Positions 2,056 through 30,727 of a stretch of DNA of 33,231 nt are shown one piece after another. The notes beneath the pieces were generated by a model. That model was not told the DNA's origin, ran no database searches, and saw only the letters and a program-made list of their open reading frames with translations. A program made the translations under genes and the position numbers. Position 1 is the first letter of the stretch. Each line of letters opens with the position of its first letter. This DNA comes from Aigarchaeota archaeon (lineage in GTDB: Archaea > Thermoproteota > Nitrososphaeria_A > Caldarchaeales > Wolframiiraptoraceae), in NCBI GenBank assembly GCA_025058515.1, contig JANXDW010000041.1, positions 1 to 33,231 of the forward strand, read 5' to 3'.

Positions 2056-2057
2056 TT

Positions 2058-2957: not shown

Positions 2958-2961
2958 TTTT

Positions 2962-6655: not shown

Positions 6656-6672
6656 GATATCTTATGGATAGT

Positions 6673-6688
6673 CAGTGATATATAACTG
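6673..6688. promoter_or_regulatory. Near-palindrome over the binding-protein promoter (candidate operator)
   Basis: CAGTGATATATAACTG is a 16-bp inverted repeat with a single mismatched pair, centred on the TATA element of the minus-strand substrate-binding gene, inside the 98-bp space between two divergent starts (6655 and 6754). A regulator bound here would block TBP. The function is inferred from position only. Confidence 0.4.
6678..6685 (-). promoter_or_regulatory. TATA box of the substrate-binding protein gene
   Basis: Reads TTATATAT on the minus strand. Its centre is about 26 bases from the ATG at 6655, the usual archaeal TATA-to-start-site distance, so transcription should begin at the start codon. 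Confidence 0.6.
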
Positions 6689-6719
6689 TTATTTTAATTT
6701 CATAAATATACCAAACAAT

Positions 6720-6727
6720 ATTTATAT
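6720..6727 (+). promoter_or_regulatory. TATA box of the hyuA gene
   Basis: ATTTATAT with its centre about 30 bases before the ATG at 6754. The earlier in-frame ATG at 6730 lies only a few bases past this box and could not be in the transcript if the box is used, which is the reason for preferring 6754. Confidence 0.55.
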
Positions 6728-6753
6728 GTATGGTTGAATATGTCTGTAGTACT

Positions 6754-8808
6754 ATGGGATATCGTGTTGGTATTGATATAGGTGGTGCTTTTACAGACTT
6801 AGTAGCTTACGATGATGAAACTGGAGATTTCGTATGGGTTAAGGATGAGACAACACCTCAGGATCCATCTATCGGAGTCTTAAATACTATAATAAAAAGT
6901 AAGGTAGATTTTTCTAAAGTCTTTTCAATAATACATGGTCAGACACTAGTAATTAACACTATCATAGAGAGAAAAGGTGCTAGGGTAGGATTGATTACTA
7001 CTAAAGGGTATAGAGATGTACTTGAACTTCAGAGGTCGAATAGAAGAGATATGTATAATTTTAGATACAAGAAACCTGCATCACTCGTACCTAGATATCT
7101 TAGAATTGAAGTAGAAGAACGGACGATGGCTGATGGAAGTATCTTAATACCGTTAAATGAAAAAGATGTTAAAGAAGCTATCAACAAGCTTCTAAAAGAA
7201 GAAGTTGAAAGTATTTGTATCAGCTTCATAAATTCTTATGCTAATCCATTGAATGAGGTTAAGGCAGGTGAGATAGCTCGTCAGATGACTGATCTACCAG
7301 TTACTTTAAGCCATGAAATAATACGTGAATGGCGAGAATATGAAAGAACTGTTACAGCTGTACTAAATGCTTACGTAAAACCTAAACTTGAAACTTACTT
7401 AGAAAAACTAGAGAAAGAATTTGTCAAAAGCGGATTTAAGAGGATACCACTCGTTATGCTCTCAAGTGGAGGAACAGCTACTTTTGACTTTGCTAAAAAA
7501 TTCCCAATATATACTGTTGAATCCGGTCCGATAGCAGGAGTCATCGGTGGAATTTACTTAGCGAAATTAATTGGAGAGAAGAATGTCATAATCTTGGATG
7601 GGGGAAGTACGACGACAAAAGCAAGCTTGGTTGAGAATCTTATCCCAAGAGTACATACTGAGTACCATGTAGAGAGAACGAGGTTTACAACAGGTTATCC
7701 AGTAAAAGTTCCAGTAGTTGATATATTCGAGATCGGTAATGGTGGGACAAGTATTGCTTGGATCGATGAGATCGGTAACTTAAGAGTAGGACCTAAAGCT
7801 GCTGGCGCATATCCTGGACCAGCATGTTATGGGAAAGGTGGGAAAGAAGCAACTGTTACAGATGCCTATGTAGTAAACGGTTTGATCAATCCAGAATATC
7901 TTCTAGGTGGTGCAATGAAGATATACAAAGAACTGGCTGTTAAAATTATCAAAGAAAAGGTTGCCGACCATTATAATATATCTGTAGAAGAAGCTGCAGA
8001 AGGAATAATAAAACTAGCTAATGAAAATGCAGCTTACGCTATTAGAGTAGTCTCTGTTCAAAGAGGTTATGATCCTAGAGATTTCACTTTGATAGCACAC
8101 GGTGGGTCAGGTCCAATGTTTGCACCATTTATATCAGAAGAACTAGAGATTAAGAAGATCGTTATACCCGTTATACCTCCTGGCGTGTTCAGTGCATGGG
8201 GCATGTTGACAACAGATATCAGGCATGACTTGATATTCACAGAGATCGTTAGACTTGATAAGGAGAAAGCGGTAGAGAGGATAAATACTATCTATAAAGA
8301 GTTAGAAGAAAGAATCTTGAATATCTTCAAGGAAGAAGACTTTGACGTAAGAGAGGTTATAACACTAAGATATGCTGATATGAGATACTACGGTCAAGAA
8401 CATACAGTTAAAGTACCTATTCTAAGCGGATATATAGATAGTTCAGGGATCAATACTATTATAGAGAGATTCCACGAATATCATGAAAGAGCTTATGCAT
8501 TTAGATTAACGAGTCCAGTGGAGATAGTTAACTTCCACATAGTTGGAGAATATAAAGTTAAGAAATTCGAATTAAAAGAACTTAATAACAAGACATACTC
8601 GAGAGATGATGCAATTATGTATGAGAGAGAAATATACATCAATGGAAAACATCTAGAGGTACCTGTCTACAATAAGCAGAAATTATCGCCTAATATCACT
8701 ATAGATGGTACAGCTATAATTGAAGACCCTACGTCTACGGTATTAGTATTAAGCTCGCAGAAAGCTGTAGTAGATAAGTATGGTAATGTAAATATCTTGA
8801 GGAGGTGA
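6754..8808 (+). CDS. hyuA: Hydantoinase/5-oxoprolinase family, subunit A
   Basis: ATP-dependent amide-ring-opening enzyme subunit (N-methylhydantoinase A/5-oxoprolinase A type), expected to work with the B subunit encoded next. An actin-like ATPase fold is indicated by GIDIGGAFTDL near the N-terminus, then GHQTLVINTIIERKG-type sequence, LSSGGTATF, ESGPIAGVIGG, a phosphate-2 motif LDGGSTTTK, GNGGTSIAWID, and AYPGPACYGKGG. The usual phosphate-2 motif in this family is DxGGTSTD, so DGGSTTTK is divergent. The frame is open from ATG 6730 (692 residues). The promoter position and the start of the conserved MGYRVGIDIGG segment favour ATG 6754 (684 residues). Its substrate (hydantoin, N-methylhydantoin, 5-oxoproline or another cyclic amide) cannot be settled from sequence alone. 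Confidence 0.92.
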   Translation: MGYRVGIDIGGAFTDLVAYDDETGDFVWVKDETTPQDPSIGVLNTIIKSKVDFSKVFSIIHGQTLVINTIIERKGARVGLITTKGYRDVLELQRSNRRDMYNFRYKKPASLVPRYLRIEVEERTMADGSILIPLNEKDVKEAINKLLKEEVESICISFINSYANPLNEVKAGEIARQMTDLPVTLSHEIIREWREYERTVTAVLNAYVKPKLETYLEKLEKEFVKSGFKRIPLVMLSSGGTATFDFAKKFPIYTVESGPIAGVIGGIYLAKLIGEKNVIILDGGSTTTKASLVENLIPRVHTEYHVERTRFTTGYPVKVPVVDIFEIGNGGTSIAWIDEIGNLRVGPKAAGAYPGPACYGKGGKEATVTDAYVVNGLINPEYLLGGAMKIYKELAVKIIKEKVADHYNISVEEAAEGIIKLANENAAYAIRVVSVQRGYDPRDFTLIAHGGSGPMFAPFISEELEIKKIVIPVIPPGVFSAWGMLTTDIRHDLIFTEIVRLDKEKAVERINTIYKELEERILNIFKEEDFDVREVITLRYADMRYYGQEHTVKVPILSGYIDSSGINTIIERFHEYHERAYAFRLTSPVEIVNFHIVGEYKVKKFELKELNNKTYSRDDAIMYEREIYINGKHLEVPVYNKQKLSPNITIDGTAIIEDPTSTVLVLSSQKAVVDKYGNVNILRR
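8801..8806 (+). promoter_or_regulatory. Shine-Dalgarno site that sets the hyuB start
   Basis: GGAGGT in the last codons and stop of hyuA. It is followed by 7-8 bases and then ATG at 8814. The in-frame GTG at 8805 overlaps this site and so cannot use it, making 8814 the likely start and coupling hyuB to hyuA termination. Confidence 0.75.
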
Positions 8809-8813
8809 AGAAG

Positions 8814-10556
8814 ATGAGTAAAATAGATTTATTTACTTTAGAGATTATTAAGAATGGTCTAATTACTGCGAATGAGGAAATGTTCTATGCTTTTGGTAGA
8901 ACTGCTAAGAGCCCAGTAATATACGAAGTACTAGACTATGCGGTAGGGATCACAGACTCGAAAGGTGAGCTAGTTGCTCAAGCACCTGGTGTACCAGGAT
9001 TCTCAGGAGTATTAGACTTCGTTGCAAAGGAAGTAGTTGAAAAATGGGATGGAGAAATATCTCCAGGAGACGTCTATGTTTTAAATGTACCATACAAATC
9101 TGGGACTCATTTAAACGATGTTACCTTAGCGATGCCTGTCTTCTATAAGGATGAACTGCTTTCATTGATCTTGAATAAAGGTCATTGGAGTGAAGTTGGC
9201 GGAATGCATTTTGGAAGCTGGACATCAGATTCTACAGAAGTCTATCAAGAAGGTATGCAACTACCTTGTGTAAGACTGTATCGTGATGGAAAGCCGAATA
9301 AAGATGTTATAGATATAATTTTAGAAAACTCTAGACTTCCTGAACATACTCTAGGCGACATGGAGGCTCAAGTTGCATCTATGAAAGTTGCTTCAAAGAG
9401 AATAGAAAACTTAATAGAAAAATATGGTATTGAGATGGTCAAGTACTCTATGCAGAAGATAATTGATGATGGGTATAAGCTTGCTTTAATAAATCTTCAG
9501 AAATTGCCGAAAGGAGATTTTGAAGCTGAAGACTATATAGATGATGATGGATTAACAGATGAGCCAGTATATGTAAGGGTTAAAGTTACAATTAAGGATG
9601 ATGAATTTATTGCAGATTTTACTGGGAGCGGTAAGGCGAAAGGATCTATTGCATCTCCTTTCCCTGCTACAGTCTCTGGAGTCAGAGAAACATATATGGC
9701 TGTAACCGATCCTCATGCACATCTGAATGGAGGATACTTCAGACCTCTAAAAGTTATAGCTCCTATCGGATGCGTATTCTATCCTGTGAAGCCGATGCCT
9801 ACATCAACTTTCTGGGAAGCGATGTCTTATACTACCGACCTTGTATGGAAAGCTCTAGCACCCCATACACCTGAAAAATTGACAGCAGGTCACTTCCTTT
9901 CAATACTTGCAACAATACTCGGAGGTGTTGATGAAAGAACAGGCGAGCCCTTCGCTATTGTAGAACCTCAAGCAGGTGGATGGGGTGCAGGATACGATAT
10001 GGATGGAGAGAGCGGTTTAGTAGCATGCGGCGATGGAGAAACCTATATAGCCTCTAATGAAGTTTACGAAAAGCGTATGCCTATACTTGTAGATAGATAT
10101 TGTCTAAATATTGAAAGCGGCACAGGTCATGGAAAATTTAGAGGAGGGTTCGGCGTCATTAAAGATTATAGAGTACTCTGTAATGAAGCCTACTTTACTG
10201 TATCAATAGGTAGGAACAAGTTCCCACCATGGGGGGTTGCTGGTGGAACTAATGGAACACCTAACTACTGTGTAATCTATAAACAAGGTGAAGAACCAAA
10301 GATAGTGAGGAAGGTTGCTGCTGTAAAGTTGAAGAGAGGAGATGTGGTAAGTTTAAGATCTGGAGGCGGAGGAGGATGGGGAGATCCTCTTGAAAGAGAC
10401 CCTGAATTGGTAAAGATGGATGTAAAGAATGAGTACATCAATATAGACACTGCTAGAGATGTCTATGGAGTTGTACTAGATCCTAAAACCCTTGAGATAA
10501 ATTGGCAGGAAACTAAGAAACTTAGAGAAACTTTGAGAAAGAAGACTAAATCCTAG
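8814..10556 (+). CDS. hyuB: Hydantoinase/5-oxoprolinase family, subunit B
   Basis: Partner of HyuA in ATP-driven hydrolysis of a cyclic amide. The protein is about 580 residues, within the range of HyuB/oxoprolinase B. Family signatures run in order: IIKNGLITANEEM at the start, then GELVAQAPGVPGFSG, GDVYVLNVPYKSGTHLNDV, the DFTGSGKAKGSIASPF motif, GTGHGKFRGGFG, and a Gly-rich end LRSGGGGGWGDPLERDPE. The strong GGAGGT before ATG 8814 decides the start. The gene ends 45 bases before the convergent argH stop, with a T-rich stretch between. The pairing with a racemase and a peptide-type importer on the opposite strand points to a complete uptake and ring-opening locus. The precise substrate is unknown. 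Confidence 0.92.
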   Translation: MSKIDLFTLEIIKNGLITANEEMFYAFGRTAKSPVIYEVLDYAVGITDSKGELVAQAPGVPGFSGVLDFVAKEVVEKWDGEISPGDVYVLNVPYKSGTHLNDVTLAMPVFYKDELLSLILNKGHWSEVGGMHFGSWTSDSTEVYQEGMQLPCVRLYRDGKPNKDVIDIILENSRLPEHTLGDMEAQVASMKVASKRIENLIEKYGIEMVKYSMQKIIDDGYKLALINLQKLPKGDFEAEDYIDDDGLTDEPVYVRVKVTIKDDEFIADFTGSGKAKGSIASPFPATVSGVRETYMAVTDPHAHLNGGYFRPLKVIAPIGCVFYPVKPMPTSTFWEAMSYTTDLVWKALAPHTPEKLTAGHFLSILATILGGVDERTGEPFAIVEPQAGGWGAGYDMDGESGLVACGDGETYIASNEVYEKRMPILVDRYCLNIESGTGHGKFRGGFGVIKDYRVLCNEAYFTVSIGRNKFPPWGVAGGTNGTPNYCVIYKQGEEPKIVRKVAAVKLKRGDVVSLRSGGGGGWGDPLERDPELVKMDVKNEYINIDTARDVYGVVLDPKTLEINWQETKKLRETLRKKTKS

Positions 10557-16692: not shown

Positions 16693-17232
16693 TTACTTCT
16701 TCTTCTGTGATTCTTTATCTCTTGTAGATGGATGATCGCCGGATTCCATTCTCTCGATCTCATCTAGTAATCCATCTTTAGCAAGAGAGATTATTAGCTC
16801 ATCATATGTTGCATCTATTATTCTTACGCATGATTCTGGAACTGAGAGATTTATCGGTATTCTATGTTTCCAGTAGTATCCATTGCTTACATTCAATCTA
16901 GTAAATATTCCTACTAATGAAGAAGCTAGATCATAGTTGAGTATGTTTAGTATGTATTCAACGAAACAGTTTTTGTAAGCTTTCTCGTATACATCTCCGT
17001 AGAAAGTATTAAAGAATAAGTATAGTGGATAGTCTTTTTTGTAAGTTTCCCAACTTGTGAAACGGCTGAATAATGGTTTCCAACCATCATCTCTTAGATA
17101 CATATCTTCTAGAGATATTGGTCTCTTCCAATAACTAACTAGATATCCTCGTTCTTCTAGCTGAGGGATAATGAAGCCTCTAATTATACCCTGTCTCATC
17201 AATTCTAACTTTTCCCTATCGCTAAGACTCAT
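16693..17232 (-). CDS. Unrecognised 179-residue soluble protein
   Basis: I do not recognise this family. The protein has no signal peptide, membrane helix or obvious catalytic motif. It is rich in aromatic residues (SYWKRPI, PLYLFFNTFYGDVYEKAY, SNGYYWKHRI), has a two-Cys pattern that is not a metal site (NCFVEY, ESCVRI), and ends in a charged tail ESQKKK. The N-terminus MSLSDREKLELMRQGIIRGF is amphipathic. It is convergent with the radical SAM gene (18-base gap), so they are not co-transcribed. Codon use matches neighbours, which supports a real gene. A cytosolic accessory or DNA-associated role is possible but unsupported. Confidence 0.7.
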   Translation of the reverse strand: MSLSDREKLELMRQGIIRGFIIPQLEERGYLVSYWKRPISLEDMYLRDDGWKPLFSRFTSWETYKKDYPLYLFFNTFYGDVYEKAYKNCFVEYILNILNYDLASSLVGIFTRLNVSNGYYWKHRIPINLSVPESCVRIIDATYDELIISLAKDGLLDEIERMESGDHPSTRDKESQKKK

Positions 17233-18888: not shown

Positions 18889-20460
18889 TTATCTTGCATA
18901 AGCTCCAGCTTGCTTTCTAGGGTCTGATACAGCTAAGAATAGACCATCTTTTTTAAAGACTGCTTGTACTGCTCCAAAGTATAGATCTGTTCCAGGATAC
19001 ATAGAGACTTCTCTAACTTCAGCTATTTTTAATCCTGCTTTTATTAAACTATGTAAGATCTTATCTTTAATCAAGTCTTCAAGAACTATTTCATCTCCTC
19101 TAATATGTATTCTGCCGTTGAGTATGGATGATACTGGATCTAGATATCTAATCAAGTAGTTTGAGAGAGATTGGATCATCGATGATATTATTCTCATGCC
19201 TCCAGATGCACCTATAACGATCAATGGAGTATCTTCTTGATCGAATAACATTAGAGGAGACATACTGCTCGCTGGTCTCTTACCTGCGTGTAGGGTATTT
19301 GGATGACCTTTCTGGAGAGTGAAGTCGTGTATCTCATCATTCATCAAGATCCCTCTAATGGTTATCCCCGAACCCATAAAGCATTCAATAGTCTCTGTAA
19401 GAGAGACATACATCTTATCCTTATTATCTACTACGCTTATATGAGATGTACCACCTCTATCTCTAACAAGATGATAAGCTAACCTCCCTTCCTCGATAGC
19501 TTGTAAAGACTCTTTTATATGAGTATCTGAGAGAAATCTCTTAATGTTTATCTCATTGAATAGTGGGTCGGATATTATAGAGCATCTTTCATCGATTATG
19601 TGGAAGAGAGTGTGAATGAGTTTTAAATAGTAATCTTCATCGCTTAACCTTATTTGAGATAATATCTTCAATGCTTCAACTAGAAGTATTGCTGAACTAG
19701 GTGGAGGCATAGCAACTATCTTTAACATCTTATCTTTAACTTCAACTTCATCTACGATCGGCTCTCTCCATTGAGCTTTATACCTCGATAAATCTTTTGA
19801 AGAGAGAAAACCATTATTATTAGAGAACACTTTTTCAATCTCTTCAGCGAGTTCACCTTCATAGAAATACTCTATGTCTTCTTTAATCATTTTCAGAGTC
19901 TCAGCTAATCTCGTGTAAGATATTTTAGAATTCTCAGAGTAGACTTCACCATCTTTAAGAAATGTTCTATAGCTTTCATGACATAACTTGAGTTTATATT
20001 TTGCTCTATCTAGATCCAAGCTCATACATTTACTCCACAATCGTGAGACTGGACATGATTCTGCATATTTCATTACTATATCAATTATCTTCTTCCAATC
20101 TATCTTTCCAAATTCTTGATGAAGCATCCAGAGACCTTTTAATGTTCCTGGAACAGCTACAGCTTTATAGCCGATCGACATATCTTCTTCATCTCTATAA
20201 TCTTCAAGTCTTACTTTTAGTGGAGCTACTTCTCGGTAATCTAAAGCTTTGAACCCAACGTCTTCTGAGTAGATTAATGCAAATCCTCCACCTCCTAAAC
20301 CACTCCAACCTGGTTCAACTACATTTAATAGTAATGAAGCAGTTACAACTGCATCGACTGCATTACCTCCATCTTCCATTATTTTCAGTGCTATAGATGA
20401 GGCTATAGGTGAATGTGATGCTATAGCGTTCTCGCCTAAACAATAAATGTTGCCAGACAT
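18889..20460 (-). CDS. ggt: Gamma-glutamyltranspeptidase family protein
   Basis: Ntn-hydrolase that transfers or hydrolyses gamma-glutamyl groups. The predicted self-cleavage and nucleophile residue is Thr338 in DRGGTSHISVVD. Other family motifs are GGNAVDAVV (31-39), GWSGLGGGGF (51-60), VAVPGTLKGL (101-110), MNDEIHDF, the glutamyl-binding RPASSMSPLML, and GASGGMRI. The protein of 523 residues has no signal peptide, unlike bacterial periplasmic GGT, so it should act in the cytoplasm. It lies 4 bases after the metallophosphoesterase gene and downstream of an amino-acid permease, with a gamma-glutamyl ligase homologue divergent from that permease. The substrate is not determined; some family members act on other amides, such as oxamate. 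Confidence 0.93.
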   Translation of the reverse strand: MSGNIYCLGENAIASHSPIASSIALKIMEDGGNAVDAVVTASLLLNVVEPGWSGLGGGGFALIYSEDVGFKALDYREVAPLKVRLEDYRDEEDMSIGYKAVAVPGTLKGLWMLHQEFGKIDWKKIIDIVMKYAESCPVSRLWSKCMSLDLDRAKYKLKLCHESYRTFLKDGEVYSENSKISYTRLAETLKMIKEDIEYFYEGELAEEIEKVFSNNNGFLSSKDLSRYKAQWREPIVDEVEVKDKMLKIVAMPPPSSAILLVEALKILSQIRLSDEDYYLKLIHTLFHIIDERCSIISDPLFNEINIKRFLSDTHIKESLQAIEEGRLAYHLVRDRGGTSHISVVDNKDKMYVSLTETIECFMGSGITIRGILMNDEIHDFTLQKGHPNTLHAGKRPASSMSPLMLFDQEDTPLIVIGASGGMRIISSMIQSLSNYLIRYLDPVSSILNGRIHIRGDEIVLEDLIKDKILHSLIKAGLKIAEVREVSMYPGTDLYFGAVQAVFKKDGLFLAVSDPRKQAGAYAR

Positions 20461-20464
20461 TCTT

Positions 20465-21412
20465 TCAACCTATTCTATACCAGTTTCTCAACCCATTTTT
20501 ATCTATCTCAAGTATCAATCCTTTCAATATTCCTGAAGAATACTCTGAACCTGGATTAAATACGATGGTCTTTTCTACTCTATCGTATCCAGGTGATTCG
20601 TGTATGTGTCCATGTAATCCTATTAGTGGTTTGTATGTCTCGAGAAACTTTCTCACAGATCTACTTCCAACATTTACTTTCTCTATCTCTCCTAGATGAT
20701 ATACTGGTCTCAGATTCTTATCTAATTTAGGTGCGACATCTATAATTGTATTATAGGGTGGTGGATGGAAGCAGCATATTATTTTGCTCCAATCTCTATC
20801 AACCAAGTTTGCAACATCCTCTAACATCTTCCATAGTTTATTCTCATCTGCTTCTCTAGGCGTATTCCATGGAGTAGGATTAACGTACTCAAAAGAGATC
20901 ATGCCGTATCCATGGGGTAGCTCCACCATTCTACCTAGAGGGTATAGGTCTCTTTCAGATCTCTTAAGAACTGGATCTATATCGAAGATATCATCATTTC
21001 CAGGCATAGTAATAACTTGCTTATCTCTATCGATATGCTCTTCTATCATGAGAGTCCATTTATGGATATTCTCAATTATCAGCTTGGAGAATAAACGGTT
21101 CACTTTTTCAGGGTCTTTCTTTAACTCTTCTACTTCTTCTCTACTACAGACATATGGGTAGACACCACAGTTTCTTAACTCATTCTTTACTTCATCTAAT
21201 TCTTGTTCTTTAATTATTCTGGTCTTTCCTTTAAATGTGTACTGGTAACAACCTTCTCTAAGATCTATTATAGGAATTATTGCTTTTCCCGTTAGGTCTC
21301 CCGATAGTATCATAACATCTACATCATGGTGTTTTGGAATTGAGAGGAATTTTCTAAATACGAGATCGCTGTTATGTATATCAGCTACAAAGAATATCTT
21401 GAAGGAGGACAT
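20465..21412 (-). CDS. Calcineurin-like metallophosphoesterase
   Basis: A binuclear-metal phosphoesterase. Motifs in order: DIHNSD (Asp11, His13), GDLTGK (Asp39), PGNDD (Asn139), CCFHPPPYN and LHGHIHES near the C-terminus. The usual GNHE/D motif reads GNDD, as in a subset of archaeal and bacterial members. The length of 315 residues and the insert between Asp39 and Asn139, carrying three cysteines and charged helices, are somewhat larger than a minimal domain. It is soluble and has no signal peptide. It sits between the permease (71 bases upstream) and ggt (4 bases downstream), so it is probably in their operon. The substrate is unknown: a nucleotide, a phosphodiester or a protein phosphate are all possible. 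Confidence 0.88.
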   Translation of the reverse strand: MSSFKIFFVADIHNSDLVFRKFLSIPKHHDVDVMILSGDLTGKAIIPIIDLREGCYQYTFKGKTRIIKEQELDEVKNELRNCGVYPYVCSREEVEELKKDPEKVNRLFSKLIIENIHKWTLMIEEHIDRDKQVITMPGNDDIFDIDPVLKRSERDLYPLGRMVELPHGYGMISFEYVNPTPWNTPREADENKLWKMLEDVANLVDRDWSKIICCFHPPPYNTIIDVAPKLDKNLRPVYHLGEIEKVNVGSRSVRKFLETYKPLIGLHGHIHESPGYDRVEKTIVFNPGSEYSSGILKGLILEIDKNGLRNWYRIG

Positions 21413-21483
21413 TCTCCGCCCATCCTATAAGACTTAAACCATAATATAAAAAGAAGAGATAGAGATTATAAAAGATTTATCGG

Positions 21484-23136
21484 TTAAGCTGGAGGAACTT
21501 CTGCGAAGATCTTCTCTGTCTTTATACCTTTCTTCTTATTCGCCCAGTTGTAGTATAAGTATAGCAGGATGGCCAGTAGAGTCCATCCAATCATCCATGC
21601 TGGAGATACAAGAGTTACATCTTCAACTACTTTCTGTAGACCTAGTATTAAGAGGATGAATGTTGCAATTACCGCTGCTCCACCTACGATCGATACTACT
21701 GGAACTTTCCCAATTGTTTTAGTGTATCCTTCTTTATATATTTCAGGTCTTCTATAAGGTAAGAGCGTTGTAGCCACAGCTGATAAGAACCATCTAACAG
21801 CTACAGCCGTTACTGCTGTTATTGCATAGAACAGTGGACCAAATTCAGGTGAAGCCAGGACAAAGATCATCAGTATGGCTCCAATTACTACTAAAGCTAT
21901 AGACCAGTGTGGTGTCCTAAACCTGATATTGACTTCTGCAAGCTTCTCAGGGAAGAATCTATCAAATGATAGTGCGAAGGCTATTCTCGATGGAACCATC
22001 ATGTATACTGGGATACCGTTCATCACCCACAATGGTACAGCAATAGTTATGATAACTGCAAGTATGGGAGCCCAACCTCCAAAGAGTGAGGCTAGGAATA
22101 CAGCCCATGTAGGTGTCTGGACTGGGTTGATCTTAACTTGATCTGATGCCTCCATCATTACGTATTGGTAGGCTGAGTAGAATTCTTTAAACCCTATGAG
22201 GGTTAGAGATGAGATGAGGAGATAGTATGCGAAGACTAATACTATGGCTCCGACAGTTCCTATGAAGAAGTTTCTTTTCGGTCTATCTATCTCTCCAGCC
22301 ATGTAGTTTGCGTATTCAAGACCCCAGAAAGCATATGCTGAGATCACGATGCTTATCGATAGTGTTATCTCAAGAGACCATGGACCAGGCCAACCCCACC
22401 TGGAGGGATCACCTGTAGCCGATGCGATATACTCTTTCCAACCTGCTGCTTCTGCTATACTCATTATCTCATCGTACGCTCCAGTACCATAAGTCATATC
22501 CCAGAGATTTCTGATCTGAGCAGGGGTTAAAGATGCAGCGTATGCAGCTCCAGCTATTGTAATAACTCCTGCAAATAATGCTACTGCAAAGAGTATGTTT
22601 ACAACATATTTATAGATTTTTGTCCCAAGTAAGCTGATGAATCCAAATATTAATACGAAGAATATTCCAAGACCTATTGCTGCGCCTGTATCTGTTGAGA
22701 GCCATTCTCCTAATGCGACTAAACCACTATTATGTGTTGCTAATCCTACTTGGATTATAGCGCTCCCCCAGAACCATGCCATGAAGAAGGATAGTGCGCC
22801 GACGATCCAGATGTGTACTCCGAAGACTAGTATTGCTTCAATATATCCAAGTAGTGGGTGGAGAACTCTAGAAACTCCGATATAGTCTGATGCTGTTCTA
22901 GGCATAGCCATGGTTAGAAAGATTACAGCAAAAGCAGCTAAAGACATAATTAATCCTCCTATAAGTAGTGCTAAAGGTATGTTTGCTCCTGGAGCATAGT
23001 ATCCTTGTTGAGCTGTAAATAGGTAGAAACCATCGGCTATAACATAGTTTGCGGCCATGGCCATAACCGAGAATGCGCCGATCTCTCTAACAAGACCTGA
23101 AGTTCTCCTTACAAATACGATCTCTTCTGAATTCAC
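21484..23136 (-). CDS. APC superfamily amino-acid/polyamine permease
   Basis: A secondary transporter of the amino acid-polyamine-organocation superfamily with 550 residues and about 12 membrane helices. The first helix region (GAFSVMAMAANYVIADGF) holds the unwound substrate-binding segment. A long outer loop at about residues 210-245 contains MTYGTGAYDEIM and WGWPGPW. The helix 6 region FWGLEYANYMAGEIDRPKRN carries the conserved glutamate and the charged cytoplasmic turn of the family. The start is a GTG at 23136, about 27 bases from a TATA box, so leaderless. It is divergent from the gamma-glutamyl ligase gene and upstream of the phosphoesterase and ggt. This suggests import of an amine or amino acid that is then gamma-glutamylated, by analogy with PuuP. 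Confidence 0.92.
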   Translation of the reverse strand: MNSEEIVFVRRTSGLVREIGAFSVMAMAANYVIADGFYLFTAQQGYYAPGANIPLALLIGGLIMSLAAFAVIFLTMAMPRTASDYIGVSRVLHPLLGYIEAILVFGVHIWIVGALSFFMAWFWGSAIIQVGLATHNSGLVALGEWLSTDTGAAIGLGIFFVLIFGFISLLGTKIYKYVVNILFAVALFAGVITIAGAAYAASLTPAQIRNLWDMTYGTGAYDEIMSIAEAAGWKEYIASATGDPSRWGWPGPWSLEITLSISIVISAYAFWGLEYANYMAGEIDRPKRNFFIGTVGAIVLVFAYYLLISSLTLIGFKEFYSAYQYVMMEASDQVKINPVQTPTWAVFLASLFGGWAPILAVIITIAVPLWVMNGIPVYMMVPSRIAFALSFDRFFPEKLAEVNIRFRTPHWSIALVVIGAILMIFVLASPEFGPLFYAITAVTAVAVRWFLSAVATTLLPYRRPEIYKEGYTKTIGKVPVVSIVGGAAVIATFILLILGLQKVVEDVTLVSPAWMIGWTLLAILLYLYYNWANKKKGIKTEKIFAEVPPA

Positions 23137-23159
23137 GGGGAATATATCATAAAAACTTG

Positions 23160-23167
23160 TATATAAA
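23160..23167 (-). promoter_or_regulatory. TATA box of the APC permease operon
   Basis: TTTATATA on the minus strand, its centre about 27 bases from the GTG at 23136. Confidence 0.6.
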
Positions 23168-23170
23168 ATT

Positions 23171-23186
23171 TTTATAAATTTATAAA
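23171..23186. promoter_or_regulatory. 16-bp perfect palindrome in the permease/ligase divergent promoter
   Basis: TTTATAAATTTATAAA is its own reverse complement. It contains TATAAATTTATA, which recurs exactly at 26938-26949 between the aminotransferase and nucleotidyltransferase-like genes. It could be back-to-back TATA boxes or a shared operator. Confidence 0.4.
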
Positions 23187-23272
23187 TAAATGTATGAATA
23201 TTTCTTGATTTACTTCTCTTCGAGATATCTTCTCTTAAAGTTAATTAGTTCGTAGAAGAGATTTCAAATATT

Positions 23273-24640
23273 ATGAGTAAAATAGAAGAAGTTATAGAGA
23301 GTGTAAAGAAGAATAATATCGAGCTTGTTAGGTTTATCTATGTTGGACTAGATGGAGTCTTAAGAGCTAAATCATCTTATCTTGATGAGCTCGAGGATCA
23401 TCTCACCCATGGCATAGGCTTGACTATGGCCATGCAATCGTTCACAGCCCTCGATACACTTTTATCAGAACCACGATTCGGACCTGAATCAGAAGATATA
23501 TTCCTAGTTCCTGATCTAGAGACTTTCTCAGCTATACCATATTCACGAGGTCAAGGTAGAGTACTCTGCGATATGAGGTTAAAGAATGGAGGAGAATGGG
23601 ATTTTTGCACTCGAAGTCTTCTTAGAAGATCGTTAAAGAAGTATCAAGAAGAACTTGGAGTTAATTTCATAAATGCTGCTGAGACAGAATTCTACATCTT
23701 GAAGCAGACTGCTCCAGATAGAGTTGAACCAGTAGATTGGGCTAAATGTTTCTCTACAGTTGGATATGATACACTTGGAGAAATTGTCTTAGAGATAATT
23801 AATGCTCTTAAAGTATCTGGGATAACTGTAGTGAGATTTATCAAAGAATACGGTCCAGGACAGTTGGAGATCAATATGAAGCATAGAGATGCTTTGAGAT
23901 CTGCAGATGATATGGTGATTCTAAGAGATGTTGCAAAAGGTGTAGCGGCAAAACATGGGCTAGTGGCCACATTTATGGCGAAACCATTCGACTGGCATGC
24001 AGGGAGTGGTATGCACTTCCACATTAGTGCAGTAGACCCTAAAACTGGTAGAAACGTATTCTACGATAAGAATGATAAGAGAAGATTAAATCTATCACCA
24101 TTAGCATACCACTTCATAGGTGGAATCCTATATCATATGAAGTCTTTATCAGCAATAGTTGCTTCAACTGTAAACTCTTACAAGAGATTGATCCCCGGTT
24201 CATGGGCTCCATCAAACATATGTTATGGATATAATAATAGGTCTGCAGCGATAAGAATTCCAACAACAAGGGCTGATAGAGAAGAAAAAAACATTAGAAT
24301 AGAGTTTAGAACTCCTGATGCAGCTGCAAACCCGTATCTAGCTTTAGCAGCAACAATAGCTGCAGGTGTACATGGTATAAGAGAAGAGATTGATCCCGGA
24401 GAACCAGTTAACGTAGATGCCTATAAGCTTACAGATGAAGAGAGGATTAAGAAGAATGTAGAGCTACTGCCAAGAAGTTTGAGAGAAGCATTAGATTATC
24501 TAGATAAAGATAGTTATCTTAAGTCTGAGCTAGGATCTGAGTTGATAGAAGAATATATTAAGATAAAGAAGGTTGAATGTGATTCCTTTGAACATTATGT
24601 AAGTCCGTGGGAGATTAAGAACTATGTCCCAGTATTCTGA
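23273..24640 (+). CDS. Glutamine-synthetase-family gamma-glutamyl ligase (PuuA-like)
   Basis: ATP-dependent ligase that probably joins the gamma-carboxyl of glutamate to an amine. The 455-residue protein has the complete synthetase core: AETEFYIL (Glu137, Glu139), GQLEINMKHRDALRSADD (Glu199), GSGMHFHIS (His248, His250), NSYKRLIPGSWAPSN and IEFRTPDAAANPYLA. The N-terminal domain is the short type with FIYVGLDGVLRAKSSYL, as in gamma-glutamylpolyamine and gamma-glutamylisopropylamide synthetases, not the housekeeping GlnA. The gene overlaps the next one by 17 bases. Beside an APC permease and a class III aminotransferase it recalls PuuA of putrescine breakdown, but the amine is unknown. A biosynthetic role cannot be excluded. 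Confidence 0.9.
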   Translation: MSKIEEVIESVKKNNIELVRFIYVGLDGVLRAKSSYLDELEDHLTHGIGLTMAMQSFTALDTLLSEPRFGPESEDIFLVPDLETFSAIPYSRGQGRVLCDMRLKNGGEWDFCTRSLLRRSLKKYQEELGVNFINAAETEFYILKQTAPDRVEPVDWAKCFSTVGYDTLGEIVLEIINALKVSGITVVRFIKEYGPGQLEINMKHRDALRSADDMVILRDVAKGVAAKHGLVATFMAKPFDWHAGSGMHFHISAVDPKTGRNVFYDKNDKRRLNLSPLAYHFIGGILYHMKSLSAIVASTVNSYKRLIPGSWAPSNICYGYNNRSAAIRIPTTRADREEKNIRIEFRTPDAAANPYLALAATIAAGVHGIREEIDPGEPVNVDAYKLTDEERIKKNVELLPRSLREALDYLDKDSYLKSELGSELIEEYIKIKKVECDSFEHYVSPWEIKNYVPVF

Positions 24641-25601
24641 GATTAGAGAGATTCTGAGCACGTTGAAAGAGGTTGATGTTGATAAAGTCCTTTCAGTAGT
24701 AGGTGATAAGATAAAGATCTATCCTGTCTCCCATTATCTATCGACTCATAACGAATACATTAAAGAGCTTGACCAGAAAGAAAATTTCTGTGGAGCCTTC
24801 ACTGCTTCATACATCTTAAGAGGTATGGGCTACAGAATACATAAGAAAGAAAGAGTAGATCAAGATTATATTGCCTATCTCTCACGGGTAAACGTTGACC
24901 CACATGACTTGGCAAAGATAAGGAGGTTAAAAGATGAGATAGCTAAACTCTCTAAAGAGGAAGCTGATGAAATTATTGAGAAGAATAGGAGTATATGGTA
25001 TAGGTTTGATGATCTGCCTACGACTTTGAAACCACAAGAACTTGGAGCAAGTCCAGAGGGGATCATCTACGCAGTACATGAAGTGAGCATGTCTAATCTT
25101 AGAGCAATACCAGTGAAGACTGTGAGTAAGATTGAAGGAGGTCTCTTAACAAGAGATAAGATGGAGGTTTTTCTAGATTTATTGAAGAGATCGGAAGAAT
25201 ATGGAGCACAGTTCATACTTAATTTGAATACTAAATACTTGTTAGATTCTGAGAAGATTGTTAAATTATCGGAGAAGTTATTGTTGAGAGAGAGTTTTCA
25301 AGAAGTCTTCAGAGAGAGTGTTGGACATTATGTTGGATGCGGAGGCTTGATAGAAGTTGAGGGGAGTTTCTTTATTATCATTAGAGAGACTTATAGGAGG
25401 TATGGAGTACACATCCAGCCTGTTGAATATGTTAGGAGAGCGCTTATTAGAGAAGATGGGAGAGAAGGTGGAATAATAATTATCGTGCCTACAGAATTTG
25501 AAGAAGATTTAAGAAAAATATTGGTGAATAAAGGTTTCAGAATTGAGATGTGGGATAATGGAAGCCCGTTTATTCCTTTCACCATCCAGAGAACTTCTTA
25601 A
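24624..25601 (+). CDS. Putative papain/C39-like cysteine hydrolase of unknown function
   Basis: I do not recognise an experimentally defined family. The 325-residue sequence has a papain/C39-like layout: LDQKENFCGAFTASYIL gives an oxyanion Gln51 five residues before a candidate nucleophile Cys56 on a helix. Then DQDYIAYLSR follows (76-88 region), and GHYVGCGG carries His235 before a strand SFFIIIRETY (Glu255) and GVHIQP (His263). Residues 95-125 are charged helix. There is no signal peptide or membrane helix. Its ATG lies inside the ligase gene (17-base overlap), so the two are translationally coupled and likely work on one substrate. A gamma-glutamyl amide hydrolase replacing PuuD, or a glutaminase-like helper of the ligase, would fit. 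Both are inference. Confidence 0.85.
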   Translation: MSQYSEIREILSTLKEVDVDKVLSVVGDKIKIYPVSHYLSTHNEYIKELDQKENFCGAFTASYILRGMGYRIHKKERVDQDYIAYLSRVNVDPHDLAKIRRLKDEIAKLSKEEADEIIEKNRSIWYRFDDLPTTLKPQELGASPEGIIYAVHEVSMSNLRAIPVKTVSKIEGGLLTRDKMEVFLDLLKRSEEYGAQFILNLNTKYLLDSEKIVKLSEKLLLRESFQEVFRESVGHYVGCGGLIEVEGSFFIIIRETYRRYGVHIQPVEYVRRALIREDGREGGIIIIVPTEFEEDLRKILVNKGFRIEMWDNGSPFIPFTIQRTS

Positions 25602-26913
25602 CCTTCTCTTTATCTACTCTATCTTTTTCTACATCATCTAATGCTTTCTCAAATATCTCTAATGCCTTCTCAACATCTTCAACACCTATGGTTAATGGTG
25701 GAGTGATCTCTATAACGTTAGAATAGGTTCCTACATAAGTGGTGAGTAGTCCGAGTTCATAAGCTCTAAAGACGAGGCAAGCTGTTTCGAAAGCGGCCGG
25801 GGTCTTAGATCTATGATCTTTAACGAGCTCAACCCCTAAGATCATTCCCCTACCTCTAATATCGCCTATTAATCGATGTTCTCCATGAATCTCATTTAAT
25901 CTCTTCAAGATGTATTCTCCAATCCTAGAAGCTTTTTCAAGAATCTTATCCCTCAGAATTATGTTTATTGTTGCTAATGAGGCTGCACAGCTAACTGGAT
26001 GAGCGCTACTTGTAAATAAGTGAGCTGCTAAGGCTGAATCCATGATTTCATCTCTTCCAACGACTGCGCTTAGAGGGAAGCCTGAAGCCATCGGCTTAGC
26101 CATCGATATAACGTCAGGAGCTATATTGGAGTGTTCTACTGCGAAGAATCTACCTGTTCTACCAAATCCAACTTTAACCTCATCTACTACGAAGCTTATC
26201 CCTCTATCTTTACAAATCTTGTATAGATTGGGGATGAACTCTGTAGGTGGAACTACTACTCCGCCATCACTCTGTATTGGCTCAACGATTACTGCAGATA
26301 GATCTTCAGGTGGAGCATTATCTATTACATTGTTCTCTATAAAGTCTAAGCATAGTAATCCACATTCTGGATATTGTTGCTTGAATGGGCATCTATAACA
26401 GTATGGGTATGGAGCTTTGATAGTATTTGGGAAACCGATAAACCTTGTTAAAGCTTTGTGACCTGAGAGACTTAATGCTCCCATAGTCTGTCCATGATAA
26501 GATCCTTGGAATCCAAGTAATCTTCTTCTATTAGAGTATATCGGCATGATCTTATATATGAACTCATTAGCATCAGATCCCGTTAAACCAAACCAGACCT
26601 TCTTCTTGAAATCTCCTGGAGTTATCTCTACCAATCTTTCAGCTAATTCTATTCCTACAGTATTTGGGAAAGTAGTATGAGAAGAGAATACCAGTCTTTC
26701 AAGTTGTTTCTTAACCGCTTCTATTACTTCAAGATTGTTGTGTCCTAGATTTGTTACAGCCCACTGTGAAGAGAAATCTATATACTCTCTACCTTCTACA
26801 TCCCAAACCTTTGAACCGCTAGCTCTATCTACTACAATCGGATAGAACCTTATCCCAATAACTTTACCAATTGTTCTCTCTTCTCTTTCAAGATACTCAA
26901 ATACCTTTGACAT
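25579..26913 (-). CDS. Class III PLP aminotransferase (4-aminobutyrate/omega-amino acid type)
   Basis: Transfers an omega-amino group, probably to 2-oxoglutarate or pyruvate. The 444-residue protein shows GSDANEF (112-118), GSYHGQTMGALS (137-148), the PLP-binding Asp in VVDEVKVGFGRTG (Asp244) and the Schiff-base Lys273 in SMAKPMASGFP. A four-Cys insert CYRC(x8)C(x3)C at residues 172-188 is seen in a subgroup of archaeal and bacterial GABA/ornithine-type enzymes and may bind a metal or form disulfides. Its 3' end overlaps the convergent cysteine-hydrolase gene by 23 bases. A TATA box lies 26 bases before the ATG. In the cluster it would take the place of PuuE, or deaminate a gamma-glutamylated diamine directly. 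Confidence 0.92.
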   Translation of the reverse strand: MSKVFEYLEREERTIGKVIGIRFYPIVVDRASGSKVWDVEGREYIDFSSQWAVTNLGHNNLEVIEAVKKQLERLVFSSHTTFPNTVGIELAERLVEITPGDFKKKVWFGLTGSDANEFIYKIMPIYSNRRRLLGFQGSYHGQTMGALSLSGHKALTRFIGFPNTIKAPYPYCYRCPFKQQYPECGLLCLDFIENNVIDNAPPEDLSAVIVEPIQSDGGVVVPPTEFIPNLYKICKDRGISFVVDEVKVGFGRTGRFFAVEHSNIAPDVISMAKPMASGFPLSAVVGRDEIMDSALAAHLFTSSAHPVSCAASLATINIILRDKILEKASRIGEYILKRLNEIHGEHRLIGDIRGRGMILGVELVKDHRSKTPAAFETACLVFRAYELGLLTTYVGTYSNVIEITPPLTIGVEDVEKALEIFEKALDDVEKDRVDKEKVKKFSGW

Positions 26914-26935
26914 AGTCTATATTCTGCTCATACAA

Positions 26936-26951
26936 GATATAAATTTATATA
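26936..26951. promoter_or_regulatory. Back-to-back TATA boxes for the aminotransferase and nucleotidyltransferase-like genes
   Basis: The minus-strand box TTTATATC (26936-26943) has its centre about 26 bases from ATG 26913. The plus-strand box TTTATATA (26944-26951) would start transcription near 26974, nine bases before TTG 26983. Together they contain TATAAATTTATA (26938-26949), identical to the core of the palindrome at 23171-23186. Confidence 0.55.
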
Positions 26952-26982
26952 TAATCACAGTAGACAATATACCCGAATTAGA

Positions 26983-27792
26983 TTGATTGATGACTTTTCT
27001 TCAAAGGTATTGAAGATAGCTCTAGAAATTGTGGAGAGAGCGAGTGAGAGAGGAATAGTAACGAGAATTCTAGGAGCGGTAGCGACTTATCTCCATTGCT
27101 GTCATGATGAGTCAACCTTATTCTTCTTCAAGAATGCAGGTAGACTTAGCACTGGAACAATATTTACTGATGTAGACTTGATTGCTTATAGCAAGCAGAA
27201 TAAGCAATTGATATACTTTATGAGAGGATTAGGCTTCGACGAGAATAAGATCATAAATGCTTTATTCGGACATAAGAGATTGACATTCTATAAAGATCAA
27301 GTAAAAGTAGATGTATTCTTTGATAAATTAGAGTTTAGCCATGATGTATTCTTTGGGAGTGAGCCTGGGAAGGGTAGGCTTGAAATAGATTACCCGACGA
27401 TAAGCTTGACAGATCTAATGTTGGAGAAACTTCAGATCCATCATATCAATAAGAAAGATATAATCGATATGATTGCTATCTTGATGACACATGAGGTAGG
27501 TGATGCAACAGAGAAAGAAGTTATAGATGGAAGATATATTGGGGTTATACTATCTGATGATTGGGGTTTTTGGTATGATGCTCTAGAAAACTTAAAGAAA
27601 GTTGAATATTTTACAAAAAAGTTTAGAGATGATAACCTGATCTCTTTAGACTCGTCTCTAAAAGTTCTTCAAAACATTGAGAAGATTAGAACTATTATTG
27701 AGAATACTGAGAAAACTAAGAATTGGATTAAACGTTCAAAGACAGGTACTTCTAAACCATGGTATAGAGAAGTTGAAGAGCTGAATGTATAG
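26983..27792 (+). CDS. Nucleotidyltransferase-fold protein of unknown substrate
   Basis: The sequence has the layout of the Pol-beta/MNT nucleotidyltransferase superfamily: ILGAVATYLHCCH as the strand-helix before the active site, GTIFTDVDLIAYS with the metal-binding pair Asp63 and Asp65, and a third acid Asp110 in VKVDVFFD. A helical C-terminal half includes LMLEKLQIHHINKKDIIDM. The usual GS(x)SD turn is degenerate (GRLSTGTIFTDVD). At 269 residues it is larger than a minimal MNT and has no HEPN partner beside it. The start is TTG 26983, behind a plus-strand TATA box. It shares its promoter region with the aminotransferase, so co-regulation is likely. It may nucleotidylate a metabolite or a protein; no direct evidence. 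Confidence 0.75.
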   Translation: MIDDFSSKVLKIALEIVERASERGIVTRILGAVATYLHCCHDESTLFFFKNAGRLSTGTIFTDVDLIAYSKQNKQLIYFMRGLGFDENKIINALFGHKRLTFYKDQVKVDVFFDKLEFSHDVFFGSEPGKGRLEIDYPTISLTDLMLEKLQIHHINKKDIIDMIAILMTHEVGDATEKEVIDGRYIGVILSDDWGFWYDALENLKKVEYFTKKFRDDNLISLDSSLKVLQNIEKIRTIIENTEKTKNWIKRSKTGTSKPWYREVEELNV

Positions 27793-29161: not shown

Positions 29162-29686
29162 TCAAGTTATTCTCTTACCTAGATATCTATTCCAGATTTG
29201 AGCAATCAAGTATCCTGCTACCAATCCATTTAAAGTACCTGCGATGAGCACCATGATATAGATCTGGTATGCAGCAGGCATAACTCCGGCTCCTACAGTT
29301 ACATACATCGCTGAAACACCAACAATTATTGAAGCTAAGGATAGTGCAAACATTAGCCTCAGACTACTTACTGTTCTCTGAGAAGACCTAATCCTAAATA
29401 GATATATGAAGAAATCTATCATTAATCCATAGATTAAGGCAAATAGAAATGTGAAAGGTATGAAGACAGGTCTCCATGTTTGAACTAGGAGTCCAGAGAT
29501 TGCTCCAACAACTGTGCCTCCCAATCTACCAATTATGAAGTTCGCCATCGCATAGGAGAGAGGTTGGATTAAAATAAACATCTTATCTAGAGGAGTTGGT
29601 AAGAAAATCTTAGAGATAAAAACTACTATAGAAAATAATGCTATTATCGAGATTTTTTTAGATATTGCTAGACCATGCTTATTCAT
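29162..29686 (-). CDS. Small polytopic membrane protein resembling an ECF transporter S component
   Basis: About 174 residues with five or six membrane helices. It resembles the substrate-binding (S) component of energy-coupling-factor vitamin transporters in size and in the motif-like opening (ALFSIVVFISKIFLP, then ANFIIGRLGGTVVGAISGLL). No energizing ATPase or T subunit is nearby, as is usual for group II ECF systems with a shared module. The frame opens with TTG 29689, but ATG at 29686 is the second codon and a TATA-like element (29709-29716, minus strand) points to a start near 29687, so ATG is chosen. The substrate is unknown. Another small membrane family is possible. Confidence 0.7.
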   Translation of the reverse strand: MNKHGLAISKKISIIALFSIVVFISKIFLPTPLDKMFILIQPLSYAMANFIIGRLGGTVVGAISGLLVQTWRPVFIPFTFLFALIYGLMIDFFIYLFRIRSSQRTVSSLRLMFALSLASIIVGVSAMYVTVGAGVMPAAYQIYIMVLIAGTLNGLVAGYLIAQIWNRYLGKRIT

Positions 29687-29778
29687 CAATAAAATTATCT
29701 AGCTAGAAGAATAAATCTTTAATTCATTCACTAGTATGAGTAATGTAAATCAATTGAGTATATCTTCCAATCTACATC

Positions 29779-29896: not shown

Positions 29897-30163
29897 TTGA
29901 AGATAGAGTTGGTCGGTCCACTGAGAAGGATAATGGATGTCTCAGAGATTGAGTTGGAGGTAAATGAGAGAACGATGCTTGTTGAAGTATTGAATAGATT
30001 ACCTGAAAAAGTTAAGAAGCATGTTCTAAAGTCAGTAGATACCGTGTCTCCGCAGATAATGATATTAGTTAATGGTGTAGAAGTAAAAAGTATTGGGATA
30101 GAGAAAGTATACGTCGAAGATAAAGATAAGGTAGTCTTGATACCGATAATTCATGGAGGATAG
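29897..30163 (+). CDS. MoaD/ThiS/SAMP-like ubiquitin-fold protein
   Basis: An 88-residue beta-grasp protein ending in Gly-Gly (VVLIPIIHGG), the tail that an E1-like enzyme adenylates for sulfur transfer or protein conjugation. It could be the small subunit of molybdopterin synthase, a tRNA-thiolation carrier or a SAMP protein modifier. The sequence LVNGVEV and DKDKVVLIP are typical of the fold. The start is TTG 29897, with AGGTGA six bases before it. Its Gly-Gly codons GGA GGA double as the ribosome site of the next gene. No MoaE or E1 gene is nearby, so the exact role is open. The C/D box sRNA lies directly upstream. Confidence 0.85.
   Translation: MKIELVGPLRRIMDVSEIELEVNERTMLVEVLNRLPEKVKKHVLKSVDTVSPQIMILVNGVEVKSIGIEKVYVEDKDKVVLIPIIHGG
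30155..30160 (+). promoter_or_regulatory. Shine-Dalgarno made of the Gly-Gly codons
   Basis: GGAGGA encodes the C-terminal Gly-Gly of the ubiquitin-like protein and stands six bases before the GTG start of cgi121, coupling the two genes. Confidence 0.75.
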
Positions 30164-30166
30164 ATA

Positions 30167-30727
30167 GTGGAGATAATCCAGTATCAAGATAAGTGGATTG
30201 GTGCTGCAGTATACCGTTCAGTTAAAAAAGAATTTCTAAAAGATGCTACAAGACCTCTTAATGAATTATGTAGTGAGAAAGTAATAATGAATATATTTAA
30301 ATCTGATCCAGTGATCTCGTTGAAACAGATTCATGCTGCAGCTATCTCTTCTCTACTCGCATTCAAGTCTAAGTCAAATATAGCGAAAAACTTGGGAATA
30401 GAGATCTTACTCAGAATTTCATCGGAGACTCAGATAGAGAGAGCTTTAAAGAAGCTTGGTATAGATGAGAGTGCAGAGGAGGCTGGGGTATGCATCATCT
30501 CAGAAGATTATAATGAGCTGGAAGAAGCTAGAGGTATGTTGTCTTTGCGGATAGGTGGAGTTGAGCTAAGTGAAGAAGATCTACATGATAATAATAGAGT
30601 AGTTAGAGCATTAGAGTTCTACAGTATCAAGGATGAAGATTTAAAAGTTATTCAAGCTAAGAATTTGTATGAAGCTGCATTATTCTTGATATTAGAGAAG
30701 ATCGCTACGTTGGATCTCTACAGATAG
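30167..30727 (+). CDS. cgi121: KEOPS complex subunit Cgi121
   Basis: Small subunit of KEOPS, which makes the t6A base of tRNAs that read ANN codons; Cgi121 binds the tRNA 3' end and the Bud32 kinase. The hallmark segment is QIHAAAISSLLAFKSKSN followed by KNLGIEILLRISSETQIERALKKLGI, where archaeal Cgi121 has an alpha-helical HA-type motif and an RQI-like sequence. It has 186 residues, somewhat longer than many archaeal forms (about 150), the extra part being C-terminal helix. The start is GTG 30167, set by the GGAGGA in the preceding gene. The other KEOPS genes (kae1, bud32, pcc1) are not in the window. Coupling to a ubiquitin-like carrier is unusual. Confidence 0.85.
   Translation: MEIIQYQDKWIGAAVYRSVKKEFLKDATRPLNELCSEKVIMNIFKSDPVISLKQIHAAAISSLLAFKSKSNIAKNLGIEILLRISSETQIERALKKLGIDESAEEAGVCIISEDYNELEEARGMLSLRIGGVELSEEDLHDNNRVVRALEFYSIKDEDLKVIQAKNLYEAALFLILEKIATLDLYR

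Follow-up and report, generated by a model that had tools for sequence, protein, structure and literature searches.

The window analyzed here is a stretch of 33,231 nucleotides (nt) from an Aigarchaeota archaeon (assembly GCA_025058515.1, contig JANXDW010000041.1, positions 1 to 33,231), taken as a whole, and is contig C37 of an archaeal draft genome of 1.47 Mb. It contains a cassette of seven genes, in which a ligase with the glutamine synthetase (GS) fold is coupled to a protein of the DUF6885 family, and which is best described as a conserved new variant of gamma-glutamylation catabolism. Each gene is an intact open reading frame at the coordinates listed below. The first-pass annotation had named the same seven genes at these places, and all of them are present, six by Pfam matches and the nucleotidyltransferase by its structural model and Foldseek.

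The seven-gene unit

18889..20460, minus strand: gamma-glutamyltranspeptidase (GGT) homologue (PF01019, 360 bits, E 2.6e-107); no signal peptide is obvious, and Thr338 is the predicted nucleophile
20465..21412, minus strand: calcineurin-like metallophosphoesterase (PF00149, 30.6 bits), a partner of amino acid-polyamine-organocation (APC) permeases generally
21484..23136, minus strand: APC-superfamily amino-acid/amine permease (PF13520, 91 bits, E 1e-25)
23160..23167, minus strand: TATA-like box TTTATATA (as read on the minus strand), probable core promoter of the permease operon
23237..23248, plus strand: AAAGTTAATTAG box some 25 nt ahead of the ATG of the ligase gene, probably the core promoter from which the ligase-DUF6885 operon is transcribed
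23273..24640, plus strand: GS-fold ligase, probably a gamma-glutamyl-amine ligase (PF00120, GS catalytic domain, 382 bits)
24624..25601, plus strand: DUF6885 protein, putative papain-like cysteine amidohydrolase (PF21819, 147.5 bits; Gln51, Cys56, His235, Glu/Asp255)
25579..26913, minus strand: fold-type-I class III pyridoxal phosphate (PLP) enzyme, racemase/epimerase-like (PF00202, 333 bits)
26983..27792, plus strand: nucleotidyltransferase-fold protein, no Pfam match; AlphaFold2 (AF2) model with a predicted local distance difference test score (pLDDT) of 92, Foldseek matches to LnuA and ANT(2'')

The GGT, metallophosphoesterase and permease genes lie on one strand, the ligase and DUF6885 genes are divergent from them, the gene of the PLP enzyme is convergent, and the nucleotidyltransferase gene closes the row. 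The overlap that had been noted between the ligase gene and a putative cysteine hydrolase gene is confirmed; it measures 17 nt (24624-24640), and the hydrolase belongs to DUF6885 (PF21819), with a score far over the gathering cut-off of 27 bits. The class III PLP gene has the convergent orientation described for it, with a 23-nt antiparallel overlap with the DUF6885 gene (25579-25601) that has an equal length in the relatives. The divergent intergenic region of 136 bp holds two candidate core promoter elements, one for each direction. In eight aligned intergenic regions the ATA core of the TATA-like box is invariant, as is the TTAATTA of the other box (8/8 loci). With at most one mismatch allowed, this latter box has a single match in the window compared to 0.45 expected. 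Judged by this conservation, both boxes are probably core promoter elements.

The identical seven-gene arrangement occurs in eight loci of seven genomes, i.e., in the window and in seven further loci, with proteins that are 58-86% identical to those of the window; in one genome (G036) the nucleotidyltransferase gene lies at the edge of a separate contig. The genomes belong to the window's own genus, Candidatus Geocrenenecus, and to its sister genus, Candidatus Wolframiiraptor, both of which we take to be members of the family Wolframiiraptoraceae. The order of these genera is Caldarchaeales (PMC9246946). The flanks of the cassette are the same as those of the window in one genus (g1) and different in the other (g5), so that the conserved segment is bounded by the GGT and nucleotidyltransferase genes. 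Among the 44 genomes of the class, DUF6885 is found in seven, each time with an adjacent ligase at least 80% identical to that of the window; the two kinds of match coincide at eight loci, and none of the 44 genomes has one without the other. The seven genes thus form a real unit, with a recurrence beyond chance.

Two genomes show further forms of the cassette. In G042 (L036, 1-4853) it is rearranged: permease, metallophosphoesterase, GGT and ligase (58% identical) all point in one direction, and the contig ends inside the ligase gene. The draft genome G028 has two copies, L011 on contig C6 and L017 on contig C21, with coverages of 7 and 29, which perhaps represent two strains that were binned together.

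The ligase and its DUF6885 partner

To characterize the ligase, its residues were aligned to E. coli GlnA, in Salmonella numbering. In every DUF6885-linked ligase of the Caldarchaeales and of the Methanomethylicia, a class discussed below, the residues E129, E131, E212, E220, H269, H271, R321, R339, R344, R355, E357 and R359 are kept, and the haloarchaeal ligases linked to DUF6885 keep the same set of ATP-, glutamate- and metal-site residues, except for R359, which is a Lys. The ammonium-site residues S53, Y179 (now Cys) and E327 (now Trp) are replaced in all of them, with Leu at S53 in the window; from the ammonium site of a glutamine synthetase (D50, S53, Y179, E327) the window ligase retains D50 alone, while the second GS of the genome (GlnA, contig C53) retains S53, Y179 and E327. 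The pattern of retained ATP, glutamate and metal sites and a lost ammonium site is, with the exception of the aligned D50, that of the glutamyl-organic-amine synthetases (GoaS), in which the loss of ammonium-site residues is held to explain why ammonia is not used (PMC11335346; PMC8394153). The best NCBIfam model of the window ligase is gamma-glutamylputrescine synthetase. A Haladaptatus ligase passes the cut-off of this model (702 of 650 bits), and the one Methanomethylicia ligase tested stays below it (378.5 of 650 bits). The window ligase is approximately 30% identical to E. coli PuuA and approximately 38% to the Haladaptatus ligases. Because the ammonium site is replaced and the catalytic residues are kept, and in view of the NCBIfam scores, the protein is probably a gamma-glutamyl-amine ligase rather than a glutamine synthetase. 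The gamma-glutamylation logic that the first-pass annotation proposed for this archaeon is supported in this respect, with a PuuA-like ligase lacking the ammonium site of glutamine synthetases.

Gamma-glutamylation of putrescine in archaea has already been shown in Haloferax mediterranei, where GlnA-2 is a demonstrated glutamate-putrescine ligase; the authors stress the loss of E327 and D50 and the replacement of Y179 (PMC8394153). With this enzyme the cassette ligase shares an archaeal GS-like background and the altered E327 and Y179. The GoaS systems, such as NpaA1 and AtdA1 with its GAT-like hydrolase (PMC11335346), likewise have a GS-like ligase without the ammonium-site residues, paired with a gamma-glutamyl amide hydrolase. 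Compared to these, the cassette has a hydrolase of another fold and no dioxygenase genes. GS-like genes in two other genomes (G021, G022) were considered as related clusters and rejected, as their neighbors are unrelated and the DGSS motif is kept.

The pair of ligase and DUF6885 is also present outside the window's class. A scan of genome contigs for DUF6885 gave no match with a single protein as query and did give matches with an alignment as query. Three Methanomethylicia genomes score over the cut-off, with the gene order APC permease, ligase (50-52% identical to that of the window) and DUF6885 (38-40%); a gene of the ornithine-cyclodeaminase/alanine-dehydrogenase family adjoins in the two loci where the contig continues. 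On two Haladaptatus plasmids, glnA2 and DUF6885 are accompanied by genes for an M20 hydrolase and an APC permease, and the plasmid of H. halobius has an additional PLP enzyme that is 38% identical to that of the window over its full length. The DUF6885 partners of Haladaptatus and Methanomethylicia also pass the PF21819 cut-off. Haladaptatus yielded the only true relatives in the plasmid searches, in which the other 59 matches, of low identity, look like chance, and no DUF6885 was found in viral contigs. Ligase, DUF6885 and permease thus make up a core that is constant across Caldarchaeales, Methanomethylicia and Haladaptatus, three lineages of archaea, of which two also share the PLP enzyme. 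A lack of co-occurrence in relatives, which the first-pass annotation had named as grounds for refuting its proposal, is not what is seen: ligase and hydrolase occur together in the three lineages, and in two of these the PLP enzyme is with them. The partnership of the ligase with an unrelated cysteine hydrolase and the presence of an APC importer (PF13520 in the cassette) were part of the earlier proposal, and both recur in the three lineages.

A literature search found no paper mentioning DUF6885. A search of PDB sequences with the DUF6885 profile gave chance matches only, which made a fold search necessary. A Foldseek comparison of the AF2 model (pLDDT 82) with the PDB retrieved staphopain, at E 2.6e-4 and a probability of 1.00, and, at E 5e-3, the ComA C39 peptidase domain; the two matches with E of at most 0.001 are both staphopains. 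In the model, a helix begins at Cys56 and a strand at His235, which matches papain. Neither residue varies among the three lineages; Gln51 precedes the Cys, and position 255 is acidic. The protein thus has the predicted fold of the clan CA papain-like peptidases and their placement of Cys and His, and differs from them in a long insertion (residues ~70 to ~160), in a partner gene that encodes an amide ligase and in the lack of detected PDB sequence similarity. According to this model, DUF6885 is probably a papain-like cysteine hydrolase. As to its reaction, gamma-glutamyl ligases of bacterial amine catabolism pair with a hydrolase gene, as the PuuA gene does with that of PuuD (in L051) and AtdA1 with a GAT-like hydrolase (PMC11335346). 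By analogy we infer for DUF6885 the role that PuuD has, carried out with an unrelated fold.

The PLP enzyme, GGT and the permease module

The class III PLP enzyme had been proposed as an aminotransferase in the manner of PuuE, a role that finds no support. Among solved structures it is closest to amino-acid racemases (BAR, amino-acid-amide racemase and ACL racemase; 324-346 bits), compared to ~268 bits for GabT and ~242 bits for PuuE. It has an Asp at the position of GabT E211, which corresponds to D234 of ASR and D210 of ACLR, and a Glu at the position of GabT R398, which is also found in the ACL and amide racemases, so that the GabT-type gate arginine is absent. It carries SDGG, DEVKVG and AKP motifs, and its catalytic Asp and PLP-binding Lys align with those of class III racemases. 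In ASR the D234A mutant is inactive, and the equivalent Asp and Lys have been studied by mutagenesis (PMC6047364). The PLP enzyme of the Haladaptatus cluster has the same determinants, except for DEVKAG, and in a tree both enzymes stand apart from PuuE and GabT, with the window enzyme grouping with the ACL and amino-acid-amide racemases. The window enzyme stays below the NCBIfam cut-off for leucine/methionine racemase (401 of 800 bits). Because of the racemase-type Asp and Glu positions, the motifs, the scores and the tree, racemase or epimerase chemistry appears more likely than transamination; these determinants, together with the missing gate arginine of gamma-aminobutyrate (GABA) transaminases, make a PuuE role unlikely. 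The fold-type-I class III architecture is shared with the ACL and amino-acid-amide racemases (2zuk, 6gio) and with the archaeal BAR/ASR racemases (9wrf, 9wqz), and the SDGG and DEVKVG motifs and the Glu at the gate-arginine position with the former two.

In the GGT homologue, the small subunits of solved GGTs align from residue 338, and the autoprocessing Thr and the gamma-glutamyl-site motifs are kept; the protein scores below the NCBIfam equivalog cut-off (304 of 357.85 bits). It is restricted to the Caldarchaeales version and is absent from the Haladaptatus and Methanomethylicia clusters.

With the Puu pathway of E. coli (PuuA, PuuB, PuuC, PuuD, PuuE, PuuP) the cassette shares an APC importer, a GS-fold ligase that is probably gamma-glutamylating, a dedicated hydrolase gene and a class III PLP enzyme. 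It differs in its hydrolase, which is the papain-like DUF6885 instead of PuuD with its class I amidotransferase fold, in its racemase-like PLP enzyme and in the addition of GGT, metallophosphoesterase and nucleotidyltransferase. By Pfam assignment no PuuB, PuuC or PuuD gene lies inside the cassette, as had been remarked; for the PuuB oxidase and the PuuC aldehyde dehydrogenase this holds for the seven genes and their flanks, the rest of the genome not having been searched, and for the PuuD-type hydrolase of the class I amidotransferase fold it holds for the cassette. Peptidase_C26 is matched only once in the genome, over the model's C-terminal half and in an open frame of 557 codons, which is not PuuD-sized, and PF07722 is a weak test for the absence of PuuD because the model also matches GuaA, PyrG and similar domains. 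As the tested features of PuuD and PuuE are not found, the cassette is not a member of the Puu pathway, but it may still work like one.

The metallophosphoesterase and the nucleotidyltransferase, in which D63, D65 and D110 are invariant, had been listed with the cluster. At 14 more loci that were sampled from the class, paralogues of the two stand together next to an APC permease, and the adjoining genes are those of unrelated enzymes: acetamidase/formamidase-like genes (at ten loci in one and the same gene cluster), enolase-superfamily dehydratase-like genes, F420-dependent luciferase-like oxidoreductases, a proline-racemase-like gene and an FGGY kinase. The metallophosphoesterase is found in 94 of 398 Thermoproteota genomes, and the triad with the permease in most of 20 hand-picked regions; exceptions are the regions of G360, G250 and G118, which lack the nucleotidyltransferase, and L079 and L084. 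The loci concerned in the triad as a whole are L054-L067 and L074-L087. Functions as enzymes of the pathway, or in adenylylating the ligase, were considered for the two proteins and rejected, because APC permeases are accompanied by them also at loci without a nearby GS. They belong to a module that goes with permeases in general and not to the gamma-glutamyl chemistry. A literature search found no paper joining metallophosphoesterase, nucleotidyltransferase and amino acid permease in archaea, and we know of no description of the triad. In G360 (L070, 1-6159) the surroundings of a metallophosphoesterase gene include a GS-like gene and an APC permease that is apparently split; the nucleotidyltransferase was not seen there.

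Several other genes lie around the cassette. Outside the conserved segment, positions 117-10556 of the window encode an oligopeptide-type ABC transporter, an Asp/Glu/hydantoin racemase and HyuA/HyuB; the best NCBIfam model of HyuA is caprolactamase alpha (530 of 1000 bits). The HyuA/HyuB-ABC transporter region is kept upstream of the cassette in G028, and a link to lactam or 5-oxoproline recycling is possible. Two proteins without a Pfam match (29162-29689 and 16693-17232) are kept next to the cassette in genus mates. The window contig also carries genes for Topoisomerase VI B, a KEOPS subunit and LysJ, in agreement with an archaeal host, and at 29897-30727 a Urm1/ThiS-like small protein gene immediately precedes the gene of KEOPS subunit Cgi121.

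A proposed route and its alternatives

Taken together, it seems somewhat more probable than its opposite that the cassette is catabolic and is kept as a unit for the import of an amine or amino acid, its glutamylation, its epimerization and the release of glutamate by DUF6885. The APC permease would import the substrate. The GS-fold ligase, to judge by its residues, would then use ATP and glutamate to form a gamma-glutamyl amide and not glutamine. The racemase-like PLP enzyme would act at the amino-bearing carbon of the substrate, free or glutamylated, and epimerization by it is more likely than transamination. Finally, DUF6885, given its predicted fold and its gene coupling, would free glutamate from the gamma-glutamyl product in the manner of the bacterial PuuD or AtdA2 but with a fold unrelated to theirs, and GGT is possibly an alternative or salvage deglutamylase. 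Regarding the substrate, there are hints of an amino acid, amide or lactam, more than of a simple polyamine, in the racemase-like enzyme and in the ornithine-cyclodeaminase-family gene of the Methanomethylicia, whereas the haloarchaeal ligase speaks for putrescine-like amines. More specifically, and only tentatively, DUF6885 might be a novel family of papain-like hydrolases of gamma-glutamyl amides, standing in for PuuD in archaea and acting together with a racemase-type PLP enzyme, in a gamma-glutamylation route for an amino acid, amide or lactam that is plugged into a general archaeal APC-metallophosphoesterase-nucleotidyltransferase uptake module.

A number of points weigh against this catabolic route. 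No measured activity was found for any DUF6885 member, the AF2 model of the protein was built on eight sequences only, and the structural similarity to papain-like enzymes is modest (TM-scores of ~0.34 by query and of 0.60-0.70 by the best targets). The pair is rare, with 11 of the 398 Thermoproteota genomes, 10 of these over cut-off; the DUF6885 survey covered these genomes, viral contigs and plasmids, with bacterial members outside its reach. The window ligase retains the aligned D50 although the rest of the DGSS motif is lost, and it stays below the cut-off for gamma-glutamylputrescine synthetase (433.6 of 650 bits). Moreover, GGT in the same cassette could perform the deglutamylation.

The point on GGT leads to the alternative that survives best, which is nevertheless unlikely: GGT would remove the gamma-glutamyl group, and DUF6885 would either cut the imported substrate at a different bond (that of an amide, lactam or peptide) or act as a transferase. 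Dipeptidyl and gamma-glutamylcysteine transferases indeed occur among papain-like folds, the GGT of the cassette retains the catalytic Thr338 and the other gamma-glutamyl-site motifs, and the rearranged order in G042 (APC, metallophosphoesterase, GGT, ligase) brings GGT directly beside the ligase. However, it is DUF6885 and not GGT that the ligase gene overlaps, and in the Haladaptatus and Methanomethylicia clusters DUF6885 still accompanies the ligase without any GGT.

A polyamine pathway of the Puu kind is quite improbable. In it the class III enzyme would be a genuine transaminase that takes the place of the amine oxidase or of PuuE, and aldehydes would be oxidized elsewhere, e.g., by tungsten aldehyde oxidoreductases. 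Wolframiiraptor does use tungsten ferredoxin oxidoreductases (PMC9246946), the archaeal precedent enzyme uses putrescine (PMC8394153), and the best NCBIfam model of the window ligase is the putrescine one. Against this stand the Asp and Glu that replace GabT E211 and R398, the grouping of the PLP enzyme with the ACL and amino-acid-amide racemases, a PuuE score well under the racemase scores and a cassette without an oxidase or aldehyde dehydrogenase gene.

There is slightly less to be said for a biosynthetic cassette that makes a stable gamma-glutamyl compound (a compatible solute, a storage form or part of a cofactor), which the hydrolases would trim or recycle. Gamma-glutamyl bonds can be made by GS-fold ligases as well as by GGT, and a racemase could supply a partner in the D-configuration. 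However, an APC importer accompanies the ligase pair in all three lineages, and the cassette is patchy within one family, as is expected for catabolism. Lastly, an ordinary glutamine synthetase in an incidental nitrogen-metabolism neighborhood is hardly credible: the GS family domain of the ligase speaks for it, and its replaced ammonium-site residues, which the other GlnA of the genome retains, and the gene order kept across genera despite different flanks speak against it.

For the DUF6885 family, the proposed catabolic route provides a first hypothesis on function, which is testable, and its gamma-glutamyl-amide hydrolysis would likely be a non-orthologous replacement of the PuuD step. At the same time, a recurrent permease-phosphoesterase-nucleotidyltransferase module is brought to light across the Thermoproteota, and gamma-glutamylation catabolism would be extended to uncultivated hyperthermophilic lineages.

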